From the NCBI RefSeq assembly GCF_000337515.1, contig NZ_AOIQ01000021.1, positions 179,834-243,833 on the forward strand: a DNA stretch of 64,000 nucleotides. The letters run 5' to 3'. Of the stretch, positions 15,791 to 61,998 are shown piece after piece (position 1 is the stretch's first letter; each line of letters opens with the position of its first letter). The notes beneath the pieces were generated by a model. The model was not told the origin of the DNA and made no database searches. It was given only the letters and a program-made list of their open reading frames with translations. Made by a program: the position numbers and the translations under genes. The DNA is from Halovivax asiaticus JCM 14624 (GTDB lineage Archaea > Halobacteriota > Halobacteria > Halobacteriales > Natrialbaceae).

Positions 15791-16039
15791 ATGGGTGCTG
15801 CGAACGAACAGATTCGGGTTAGTGAAACGGTAAAGCGGAAGATCGAACGCCGGCGACGAGGAAACGAGAGTTATAACGACGTTCTAGAGCGAGTCCTCGG
15901 CGAGCAGGATAGCGGCGACTTCGAGGACGGTTTCGGCCGATGGTCGTCTGACGAAGCCGATCGCGTCCGTGAGGAACGTCGGAAATCGAAGGCAAAGCGC
16001 AAACGACGGATGCGCGATCGGCCAACTGATTCGGCATGA
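15791..16039 (+). CDS. VapB-like antitoxin (DUF7557-type)
   Basis: 82 residues. The N-terminal QIRVSETVKRKIERRRRGNESYNDVLERVL is the swapped-hairpin or RHH-type DNA-binding pattern of haloarchaeal VapB antitoxins. The C-terminal part is very basic after an acidic linker and would wrap the toxin. It overlaps the downstream PIN-domain gene by four bases (ATGA), the classic antitoxin-toxin order, and presumably represses its own operon. Confidence 0.82.
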   Translation: MGAANEQIRVSETVKRKIERRRRGNESYNDVLERVLGEQDSGDFEDGFGRWSSDEADRVREERRKSKAKRKRRMRDRPTDSA

Positions 16040-16434
16040 AGGTTCTTGACGCGACGTTCTTGATCGACTATCTGAGCGGTGTCGAAGCAACCCGTGAGTT
16101 TTACAGTGCGAACGGCGGATCCGATACCCGTTGGATCGCTCCGGCCCCGGCACTTGCAGAGGTTCTCGTCGGCGAAGGGAACCTTCCGGACGGAGATGTC
16201 GACGCTGCTCGCGCCGATCTCGGCTGGGTCGATGTCCAACCCATCGACGAGCGGACCGTCGCCACTGCGGGTGACATTGCGGACGAGGTTGCACCCGGTG
16301 GGCCGTATCTCGATGGGCCAGACGCATTGATCGCGGCTGTGGGTCGCGAGTTAGATGCGCCGGTCGTCTCTGCGGATTGCGATCTGACTCACGAGGAAAC
16401 CCGGTCGGTCGTCACCGTCGAAGCGTATCGCTAA
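16036..16434 (+). CDS. vapC: PIN-domain toxin VapC
   Basis: 132 residues forming a complete PIN nuclease: first acidic residue in MKVLDATFLIDYL (Asp5), second in LAEVLVG (Glu), third and fourth in PDALIAAVGREL (Asp95) and VSADCDLTH. VapC toxins are Mg-dependent RNases, often cutting initiator tRNA or rRNA. Translation is coupled to the upstream antitoxin by the ATGA overlap. The pair lies just upstream of tRNA-Leu. Confidence 0.88.
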   Translation: MKVLDATFLIDYLSGVEATREFYSANGGSDTRWIAPAPALAEVLVGEGNLPDGDVDAARADLGWVDVQPIDERTVATAGDIADEVAPGGPYLDGPDALIAAVGRELDAPVVSADCDLTHEETRSVVTVEAYR

Positions 16435-17460: not shown

Positions 17461-17669
17461 GTGCCTCTCCTGATAGTGTTTGAGGCTGGAGGGTCTCCTG
17501 AGACGGGCAGACCTCTTCCGTGCCTGTGCGGAACAGCCAATGGTCGTCTTCCTAAATGGTTGGCTGCGGGAACCGATATGGAAGTGTGGGATGAACAACC
17601 TTTCTTGAATGCCTATCCCTCAGTGGGCTGGGCGATAGGTCTTTGAGTACCACGCTCGTACCACGAGGT

Positions 17670-17942
17670 ATGAGCACGGACGCGGACGACAGCAACGGGG
17701 AAATGGTGAAACTCAACGTCAAGGTCCCGAAACAGCTCTTAGAGGAGCTAGACGAGCTCTCTGCGGAATTGCACTACTCGAACCGGTCGGAGTTCATCAG
17801 GGAGGTTCTGCGAGATACCACGGAACCGATCCTTACTCCAGGCGCACAGGAGGGAATTTCGCAGGGGTACGCGGATATTGCGGCTGGTCGAACGACCAGC
17901 CACGAGGAGATGAAGGAACGGTTCGGGATCGAGGACGAGTGA
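17670..17942 (+). CDS. Ribbon-helix-helix (CopG-like) antitoxin
   Basis: 90 residues. MVKLNVKVPKQLLEELDELS gives the beta strand and first helix of an RHH fold, SNRSEFIREVLR the second helix. The acidic C-terminal half (SHEEMKERFGIEDE) would bind the toxin. ATG 17670 follows GAGGT at good spacing. The RelE-like gene starts 10 bases after its stop, so the two form a toxin-antitoxin operon. Confidence 0.85.
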   Translation: MSTDADDSNGEMVKLNVKVPKQLLEELDELSAELHYSNRSEFIREVLRDTTEPILTPGAQEGISQGYADIAAGRTTSHEEMKERFGIEDE

Positions 17943-17952
17943 GGGCTGATCT

Positions 17953-18252
17953 GTGGCTCACAATCTCGAATACGCCGAGACGATTCAGGAGACGCTGGAA
18001 CAACTCGAAACAGCGGATGCACGCCGCATCATCACGAAACTGGATTCGATTCTCGAGTTTCCCGAGCACTTCCTCGACCGCCTGAAGAACCATCCAGGGT
18101 ACAAGCTCCGTGTCGGTGACTTCCGCGTCCTGATCGACTGGGACAAAGACAATGGGGTCCTCTACGCCATCGATGTGTTCGAGCGCAAGCGCGAGTACCG
18201 AGAACTCGGGAAGTATCGTGAGGTGTGGGGGTCGTGGCGCGATACGGAGTAG
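17953..18252 (+). CDS. RelE/ParE-family toxin
   Basis: 99 residues starting at GTG 17953. The sequence TIQETLEQLETADARRIITKLDSILEFPEHFLDRLKNHPGYKLRVGDFRVLIDWDKDNGVLYAIDVFERKREY has the helix pair and the YKLRVGDFRVLID strand set of RelE-type ribosome-dependent mRNA interferases. The typical late Arg and Tyr (ERKREYREL) are present. It pairs with the RHH protein just upstream. Confidence 0.85.
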   Translation: MAHNLEYAETIQETLEQLETADARRIITKLDSILEFPEHFLDRLKNHPGYKLRVGDFRVLIDWDKDNGVLYAIDVFERKREYRELGKYREVWGSWRDTE

Positions 18253-18600: not shown

Positions 18601-18609
18601 AATTATATA
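18601..18609 (+). promoter_or_regulatory. TATA box of structured RNA locus A
   Basis: AATTATATA begins exactly 29 bases before the conserved GAACGG at 18630. Copy B has AATTATATT at the identical distance (61481 to 61510), while surrounding bases differ, so box and spacing are conserved by function. Confidence 0.7.
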
Positions 18610-18629
18610 TTCTCTCACGTATTCTGTCA

Positions 18630-18713
18630 GAACGGAAACCGCGCTCCGTCACTGACGCGGGGACATGCAGGTGAAATGTCCCGGGTGGACCTAGCACCCG
18701 AGACGCGGTTTCC
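18630..18713 (+). ncRNA. Structured RNA, copy A (84 nt, three-stem junction)
   Basis: Predicted fold: closing stem GGAAACCGCG (18634-18643) with CGCGGTTTCC (18704-18713); hairpin GGGACAT (18660-18666) with ATGTCCC (18676-18682); hairpin GGGTG (18683-18687) with CACCC (18695-18699), then a conserved GAGA. Copy B has the same length and fold. Its closing stem differs by two compensatory pair changes (A-U to G-C and G-C to A-U), which is direct evidence for selection on RNA structure. It could be a stand-alone RNA or the 5' leader of the two downstream frames. I recognise no known family. Confidence 0.72.
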
Positions 18714-18738
18714 AAACCCATGAGCGGATTTGCAAACC

Positions 18739-18873
18739 ATGCTTAGAGAGATACTACCGAGTCAAAAAGGAATCGCCCGCCTTTCGGATAGCCAGCGCCA
18801 GCTTCTCGCACCGTTCGGTTTAGAATCCAAAACCCAGCCGGTTCTGCTCGCCAGTTCGTCGGAGGTGCCCTGA
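18739..18873 (+). CDS. 44-residue conserved peptide of locus A
   Basis: Starts ATG 18739, 26 bases after the structured RNA, and ends in TGA that overlaps the ATG of the next gene by one base, so translation is likely coupled. It aligns without gaps to the 47-residue peptide of locus B over residues 1-31, with identities at M1, R3, P7, Q9, K10, A13, S18, Q19, F26, S30 and K31. No membrane segment or cysteine. Function unknown. Some similarity could come from DNA-level homology, but both frames stay open and sit in the same place. Confidence 0.5.
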   Translation: MLREILPSQKGIARLSDSQRQLLAPFGLESKTQPVLLASSSEVP

Positions 18874-19139
18874 TGGGACGTTACGAATACGACGAGCAGC
18901 GATCGGGCCCCGCGTGCGAGCGGTGCAACGTCGAACTCACGGCGGATCACTGGGTTCGACTTGAAGCGCTCCACCAGGGGACGCGCTCGGATCGATACGA
19001 GGACGGTGTCCGGCTGGTCTGCGTCGATTGCGTGGCAGCCCTCGGACTCCTCGAATTCGCCGGTCACGATGAGCCGAATCCGGTGGAGCCGCCGGACGCT
19101 AACCGAGTCCCATCGGATCCCGCGCAGGGGAACGAGTAA
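18873..19139 (+). CDS. Two-CxxC small protein, locus A
   Basis: 88 residues beginning MGRYEYDEQRSGPACERCNVEL. Two pairs of Cys (CERC at 15-18 and CVDC near 50) should bind one zinc. The C-terminal 20 residues are Pro/Asp-rich and probably disordered. Its paralogue at 61768-61998 shares MGRY-x-x-DE, C-x-RC, W-x-x-L-x-A-x-H, RY-x-D and CVDC-x-AALG-x-LEF. Both copies follow the structured RNA and a short peptide frame. Molecular role unknown. Confidence 0.78.
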   Translation: MGRYEYDEQRSGPACERCNVELTADHWVRLEALHQGTRSDRYEDGVRLVCVDCVAALGLLEFAGHDEPNPVEPPDANRVPSDPAQGNE

Positions 19140-61480: not shown

Positions 61481-61489
61481 AATTATATT
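61481..61489 (+). promoter_or_regulatory. TATA box of structured RNA locus B
   Basis: AATTATATT starts 29 bases before GAACGG at 61510, exactly the distance seen at locus A. Flanking bases are otherwise unrelated to locus A. Confidence 0.7.
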
Positions 61490-61509
61490 GTGGTTCGAAT
61501 TGACGTGTT

Positions 61510-61593
61510 GAACGGAAGCCACGCTCCATTCAGTCGCGGGGGCATGCGCGTAGAAATGTCCCGGGTGTTCAAGGCACCCGAGACGTGGCTTCC
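61510..61593 (+). ncRNA. Structured RNA, copy B (84 nt, three-stem junction)
   Basis: Closing stem GGAAGCCACG (61514-61523) with CGTGGCTTCC (61584-61593); hairpin GGGGCAT (61539-61545) with ATGTCCC (61556-61562, one G-U pair); hairpin GGGTG (61563-61567) with CACCC (61575-61579), followed by GAGA. Length is the same as copy A, and two pairs in the closing stem covary between copies. CACCCGAGACG and AAATGTCCCGGGTG are identical in both, hinting at a binding or tertiary-contact core. Confidence 0.72.
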
Positions 61594-61622
61594 GAATTCC
61601 CCTGACAGGGTATCCTTCCACC

Positions 61623-61766
61623 ATGAGACGGAATTCACCACCGAGACAAAAAGCTCTCGCACACCAGTGGTACAGTCAGCCGAAGCATTACCTCGAATTC
61701 GTCTGGGATTCGAAAGCCGGAGTCGACGATCTGGTTCTGCGACTCGGGAATCTGAAGGTGAACTGA
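61623..61766 (+). CDS. 47-residue conserved peptide of locus B
   Basis: ATG 61623 follows the structured RNA by 29 bases; the TGA is one base before ATG 61768 of the two-CxxC gene. The peptide begins MRRNSPPRQKALAHQWYSQ and ends LRLGNLKVN. It shares 11 identical residues with peptide A over 31 gap-free positions. It has aromatic and basic residues (W16, Y17, Y23, W28) and no Cys. Function unknown. Confidence 0.5.
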   Translation: MRRNSPPRQKALAHQWYSQPKHYLEFVWDSKAGVDDLVLRLGNLKVN

Positions 61767-61767
61767 G

Positions 61768-61998
61768 ATGGGGCGCTACGACTTCGACGAGCCGCGGCCG
61801 GACGACCCGTGCCCACGCTGTGGGGCAGATCTAGAACAAACCTACTGGGCGATCCTCAGGGCGGTCCACGACGGACCGTTATCCGAGCGGTATCGGGATT
61901 CGGAGAAACGGATGTGCGTGGATTGCCTTGCAGCACTCGGGAGGCTGGAGTTCGATACGGGGCGGGTGGCTGGAGGGGGTGGACAGCGGTCAGCGTGA
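61768..61998 (+). CDS. Two-CxxC small protein, locus B
   Basis: 76 residues starting MGRYDFDEPRPDDPCPRCGADL; CPRC (15-18) and CVDC (50-53) should form one zinc site. The helix between them (TYWAILRAVHDG) carries W, A and H conserved in copy A. The C-terminal tail is Gly-rich and short. Same position relative to RNA and peptide as copy A. Confidence 0.8.
   Translation: MGRYDFDEPRPDDPCPRCGADLEQTYWAILRAVHDGPLSERYRDSEKRMCVDCLAALGRLEFDTGRVAGGGGQRSA

Follow-up and report, generated by a model that had tools for sequence, protein, structure and literature searches.

In Haloferax volcanii, translation can be controlled by the synthetic theophylline riboswitch E, a leader that buries both the Shine–Dalgarno (SD) site and the AUG until binding of the ligand frees the two (PMC8241225). 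As of 2021, experimental proof of a natural archaeal riboswitch was confined to one case, the fluoride riboswitch of Thermococcus kodakarensis (PMC8241225). Structured leaders had been considered untypical in haloarchaea, where most mRNAs are leaderless (72% of the protein-coding transcripts of Hfx. volcanii; PMC4983044). Here, we describe a family of haloarchaeal leader RNAs that are probable gene switches, of a type with few precedents in these organisms. We consider it likely that the RNA acts in cis, as a translational switch at the 5′ end of the mRNA that responds to a putative effector.

Two copies of the locus, A and B, lie on the forward strand of the window, the 64,000-nt stretch of Halovivax DNA that was analysed. 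The order noted in the sequence-only reading, in which a TATA element is followed by an RNA at the 5′ end of the transcript, a short open reading frame (ORF1) and a gene for a two-CxxC protein (ORF2), is present in both. In copy A, an AT-rich TATA element (18601–18611) precedes the RNA (18630–18717; R2 match at C21:198463-198550, 87.9 bits), which measures 88 nt in the covariance model and 84 nt without its 5′ GAAC. Folding and covariation delimit the 5′ strand of helix P1 (GGAAACCGCG followed by CTC; 18634–18646), the P2 hairpin (GGGACAT/ATGTCCC, with a conserved GAAA preceding the 3′ strand; 18660–18682) and the P3 hairpin (GGGTG/CACCC; 18683–18699), the covariation of the last including loci L187 and L194. 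The 3′ strand of P1 (GAG A CGCGGTTTCC; 18700–18713) has two alternative partners according to fold, pairing and energy computations. Downstream lie the start region AAACC-ATG (18734–18741) and ORF1 (18739–18873; ATG at 18739, TGA at 18871–18873), a putative coupled leader frame of 44 codons with a lysine at codon 10. ORF1 contains a further hairpin, P5 (CGAGTC-AAAAAG-GAATCG; 18758–18775), recognized by its position and by covariation across loci, and is followed by ORF2 (18873–19139), which encodes the 88-aa two-CxxC protein, a zinc-motif protein by the statistics given below.

Copy B has the same parts: a TATA element (61481–61490), the RNA (61510–61597; R2 match at C21:241343-241430, 90.4 bits), the 3′ strand of P1 (GAG A CGTGGCTTCC; 61580–61593, from fold and energy computation), the start region CC-ATG (61621–61625), a 47-codon ORF1 (61623–61766) and a 76-aa two-CxxC protein encoded by ORF2 (61768–61998). 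Its P5 hairpin (CGAGAC-AAAAAG-CTCTCG; 61642–61659), placed by position and by the hairpin test across loci, has one mismatch. The one-base overlap between ORF1 and ORF2, described earlier for this layout, is real in copy A, whereas in copy B the frames are one base apart. Both RNAs fold more stably than their dinucleotide shuffles (z of -4.5 for A and -5.5 for B; 0/200 each), and the exact core pattern has six matches in the genome, versus none for the reversed control. Upstream of copy A, two toxin–antitoxin-like gene pairs can be seen by eye (15791–16434 and 17643–18252); VapBC or PIN/HTH genes also lie upstream of the copies in L276 and L278, which may be coincidence.

A covariance-model search, which the sequence-only reading had proposed as a check, reveals a large family. 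Models were built stepwise, from six copies, then from 22 sequences and finally, as a broad model, from 30; the second finds 28 copies in the Halovivax genome, A and B among them, and four other Halovivax genomes have 22, 24, 29 and 32. With the broad model, the RNA is found in 167 of 391 haloarchaeal genomes and in 62 of 86 genera (at E ≤ 0.01, where about four of the 391 may be chance matches). Its distribution is patchy, with 0–33 copies per genome and the maximum in one genus outside the Natrialbaceae. Within that family, a scan by name found it in Halovivax, Natrinema, Natrialba, Halopiger, Halostagnicola and others. Haladaptatus, identified via plasmid records, carries up to 18 copies. 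Across 393 genomes of the phylum, matches at E ≤ 1e-4 are confined to the same order. Rfam yields a tRNA as its sole match in the whole window and, for four loci at E ≤ 1, one sub-threshold match that lies off the RNA. A literature search, with subscription journals largely uncovered, found no description of it. Viral contigs and phages have no matches to the Natrialbaceae core; a looser core matches three viral contigs (L273, L274 and L275), of which L274 encodes phage genes that by eye look unlike haloarchaeal ones; L273 and L275 have no R3 match. The RNA is a previously undescribed, class-wide haloarchaeal family, of which the window holds two of the 28 copies in its genome.

The RNA folds as a three-way junction closed by P1, in which P2 and P3 adjoin directly and the 3′ strand of P2 follows a GAAA. 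Conserved unpaired bases are few, mainly this GAAA. Covariation of the structure, suggested earlier as a test, is strong among 30 diverse sequences: 18 of 24 pairs have changed on both sides (9.0 ± 1.7 in shuffles, 0/500), double-change cells number 77 (16.3 ± 4.0 in shuffles), and the covariation score is 0.371 against 0.152 ± 0.011 for shuffled alignments and at most 0.089 for slid structures, in an alignment that was fitted to the model and hence favours the structure. Diverged copies, read by eye, have the same helices with other sequences; within the Natrialbaceae, helix sequences are nearly invariant. A candidate pseudoknot of the H type, joining J1/2 to the loop of P2, is paired in 44% of the cells of alignment A5 and scores 9.29, a small excess over swapped partners (8.55 ± 0.17, 0/500).

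The position of the RNA is that of a leader. Among 196 loci, 192 have their first ATG 3–28 nt past the RNA. Upstream of the RNA start, the AT fraction in 57 Natrialbaceae loci is 0.96–1.0 at -26 to -22 and 1.0 at -30/-29; with an AT-rich TATA element 22–30 nt upstream, the transcript should begin at the RNA. Slightly upstream of the TATA element, many of the short-RNA copies in the Halovivax genome (L048, L051, L054, L058 and L060–L062) share a TTGATTCCAC-like stretch, perhaps a regulator site. Family f3 copies (L210, L218, L223 and L225) have inverted repeats around the promoter, such as CCAATGCA..TGCATTGG, which are perhaps operators.

Just ahead of the start codon, the sequence of the P1 5′ strand occurs a second time, and the 3′ strand of P1 can pair with either of the two. 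Copy A illustrates this: its P1 is altered to GGAAACC/GGTTTCC (not GGAAGCC/GGCTTCC), and a matching AAACC stands before its ATG as the alternative partner of GGTTT. The pairing was first noticed by eye and then scored in four ways (with a 9-base window, with the AUG and downstream controls, with one locus per P1 type, and per copy), all of which agree in direction. With one locus for each distinct P1 type (35 loci), it scores 14.1, against 10.3 ± 0.4 with swapped partners (0/2000); for 57 unique loci outside the Natrialbaceae and the 9-base window, it scores 14.9, against 10.7 ± 0.4 (0/200). When the AUG is added to the window, the start region scores 16.0–16.2 and downstream control windows 9.1–9.8. 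The two sides covary, as in GGTCTTC/GAAGACC, GGCTTTC/GAAAGCC, GGGTTC/GAACCC, GGCCTT/AAGGCC and GGCTGT/ACAGCC. Swap tests within the Natrialbaceae are weak (11.98 versus 11.73, 2/200; 12.47 versus 12.2) because P1 hardly varies there. Together, these results demonstrate that the alternative pairing of P1 with the start region is maintained by evolution.

Energy computations, with parameters for 1 M NaCl as against the molar KCl of the haloarchaeal cell, predict closed P1 as the ground state of most copies. Among all 28 copies of the Halovivax genome, an enforced fold that hides the start lies a median of 5.3 kcal/mol above the minimum free energy (range 0 to 21.7; 0 in six copies), and the best alternative stem takes in bases of the AUG in 24. 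A subset of 117 loci from three groups has lower medians (3.9, 2.1 and 4.7 kcal/mol), which are biased downward in favour of a switch, since these loci were selected for an alternative stem score of at least 13; the 28 copies were run unfiltered, with a slightly different window, and theirs are the figures to rely on. For copy A, whose alternative helix has 5 bp, the cost is 7.2 kcal/mol; for copy B, where CC-ATG would pair with CGTGG in the second weakest alternative of the 28, it is 14.0 kcal/mol. With hiding folds this much weaker than P1, the two copies of the window may be mostly 'on' or weakly switching.

Based on the two pairings, we propose the following model. In one state, P1 would close the P1-P2-P3 junction and leave the pre-start bases and the AUG single-stranded; ORF1 would then be translated, and with it the zinc protein that is coupled or fused to it. 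In the other state, P1 would open, and the freed 3′ strand (in most Natrialbaceae CGUGGCUUCC), together with a small hairpin, P4, would pair with the start region (GGAAGCCAUG), hiding the start codon. In the direction that we judge most likely, binding of an effector at the junction would stabilize P1 and turn translation on. The computations show the RNA family with its covariation, its fixed place ahead of the start codon, the covarying second pairing and, in many copies, only a small predicted difference in energy. The sequence-only reading had offered, among other options, a sensing leader in control of a zinc-finger protein. As a leader it is borne out by the place of the RNA 5′ of the start codon and by the maintained second partner of P1; that the two states govern translation, their direction and the existence of an effector to be sensed are what we infer.

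The downstream genes, which the sequence-only reading had also named as a test, encode a zinc-motif protein at most loci, either in the frame of ORF1 or in a coupled second frame: 153 of 196 (~78%), versus 45 of 477 control ORFs (9%). This contrast is indicative rather than exact, as the patterns were drawn up, not blind, after many products had been read, and the controls are mechanical ORFs with high GC3 as opposed to curated genes. At the other 43 loci, the motif search found no such protein, and the pattern misses some Cys-rich products (L212, L231 and L257). The zinc-motif proteins fall into unrelated kinds: the Natrialbaceae have two-CxxC and PCGC proteins, Haladaptatus has SWIM proteins (PF04434, just over the cut-off), and CCHC-like proteins occur elsewhere; ribbons are a further kind, and one kind combines a zinc motif with a HalOD1-like domain (a match just below the cut-off). 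Pfam, NCBIfam, PHROGs and PADLOC leave the Natrialbaceae zinc proteins and ORF1 without a convincing family assignment. Some of the loci that lack the motif have products of another kind: in L208 and L209, which belong to other families, the same leader stands ahead of genes that by eye resemble those of PadR-type and TFB-type regulators. A Halopiger/Natrinema subtype (ORF1 beginning MIAYPLPRHKRLAR; L064, L099, L116, L132, L023, L030, L114 and L139) has no zinc protein in reach; the ~250 nt that follow its RNA resemble each other from copy to copy, with no frame clearly conserved.

An overlap of 4, 8 or 11 bases between the end of ORF1 and ORF2 is typical and hints at translational coupling. 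The sequence-only reading had aligned the two peptides over 31 residues; conservation as protein holds for about the first 14 codons of ORF1: among 11 paralogs, codons 2–14 vary mostly at third positions, whereas codons 15–50 have no such bias, and conservation as a peptide is rejected past codon ~14. ORF1 therefore looks chiefly like a coupled leader frame whose first codons are conserved. Codon 10 starts with AA in 91–95% of the Natrialbaceae loci, and P5 is centred on it, 27 nt from the A of the AUG in 87 of 126 loci. In other families this is weaker, with strong hairpins in 16.7% versus 3.6% and the codon-10 feature in 33%.

What might the effector be? A natural riboswitch class for zinc, another metal or a thiol/redox signal, which would hide start codons over a regulon of zinc proteins, is one possibility. 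Zinc or redox state as the signal is our guess from the downstream genes, and we regard this specific version as unlikely. For the switch in general, the scarcity of conserved unpaired bases is a point against a metabolite pocket. The same scarcity, along with the invariant helix sequences of the Natrialbaceae, favours a leader operated by a protein, in which one of the zinc proteins themselves, or else a shared RNA-binding protein (L7Ae, for example), would bind the P1–P3 junction and set the same two folds; the zinc proteins would then regulate one another in a network. The alternative pairing fits this equally well, and the usual product is a zinc-motif protein. These proteins are, however, unrelated (SWIM, CCHC, ribbons, HalOD1-like plus zinc), which makes one shared self-recognition unlikely, and no kink-turn is evident by eye. 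We give a protein operator the same small chance as the riboswitch class.

The cis-acting switch must also be weighed against readings in which the place of the RNA has another meaning. It is compact, stable and separately folding, at a predicted transcript start, as would befit a small RNA that is cleaved from the transcript to act in trans and lies ahead of the genes for co-expression only. Such a trans-acting RNA would not account for the covarying complementarity to the start of the very mRNA that carries it or for the constant short distance to the AUG, and the earlier suggestion of a small RNA with its protein partner loses ground because the downstream proteins are of unrelated kinds; we consider it very improbable. 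Only slightly less improbable is a selfish or mobile cassette, a small element that would move with its promoter, RNA, leader frame and zinc protein as one unit and use the RNA for its spread or upkeep. The patchy distribution, with up to 33 copies in a genome, fits such a cassette, as do the many copies on large plasmids (the SWIM type occurs at 164 places in 21 plasmid records). Against it, a comparison of two close species shows the flanks of most copies to match (copy A and L279, copy B and L280), the RNA precedes unrelated proteins, no transposase is annotated beside the copies inspected, and phages and viral contigs lack the Natrialbaceae core. Between more distant Halovivax species, few copies have matching flanks; a genome query with the 3 kb of one copy returned no clean empty site. 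PADLOC has no match for ORF1 or the PCGC protein, a best E of 0.017 for ORF2, and a match of the SWIM protein to candidate PDC-S62 (1.9e-5) over residues 46–93 only. With most flanks shared between the two close species and no defence-family match beyond this weak one, the idea of a minimal selfish or defence module is weakened, and mobility is not needed to explain the data. On Haladaptatus plasmids (L276, L277 and others), SWIM zinc finger genes are strongly amplified, to up to 29 places on one 599-kb plasmid.

If the cis-acting switch is correct, haloarchaea would have a large unannotated layer of translational control, exerted by an RNA that spans the class and reaches 33 copies per genome, and dozens of small zinc proteins without assigned function could be expected to share one signal. 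Among described systems, type III toxin–antitoxin loci have tandem RNA repeats before a ToxN-like nuclease, as opposed to the single RNA per locus seen here; we rejected this assignment, as the product is a zinc-motif protein without a match to a ToxN-like endoribonuclease family. The Haladaptatus plasmid SWIM genes (PF04434) carry a diverged copy of the RNA directly before their start codons (L192, L197, L276, L277 and others), but are annotated as proteins only, with the leader unannotated in the inspected records, whose gene table lists no RNA genes. Theophylline riboswitch E (PMC8241225) is engineered, whereas the leader described here is natural and has another sequence and shape. Compared with translational riboswitches in general, the ligand is only putative, conserved unpaired bases are few, the start codon region is hidden instead of the SD site, and up to 33 copies per genome precede genes for unrelated zinc proteins. 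Of the features by which riboswitches are recognized, a conserved, covarying structure in the 5′ UTRs of a set of genes is present. Two exclusive folds, one of which would control expression, are predicted: the second pairing covaries and, in many copies, lies close in energy. With a ligand that is only putative, we do not file the RNA as a riboswitch; by analogy, the arrangement would work like a translational one, with which it shares a structured, covarying RNA in the 5′ UTR and a closing-stem strand that serves two exclusive helices, with the start region hidden in one of them.
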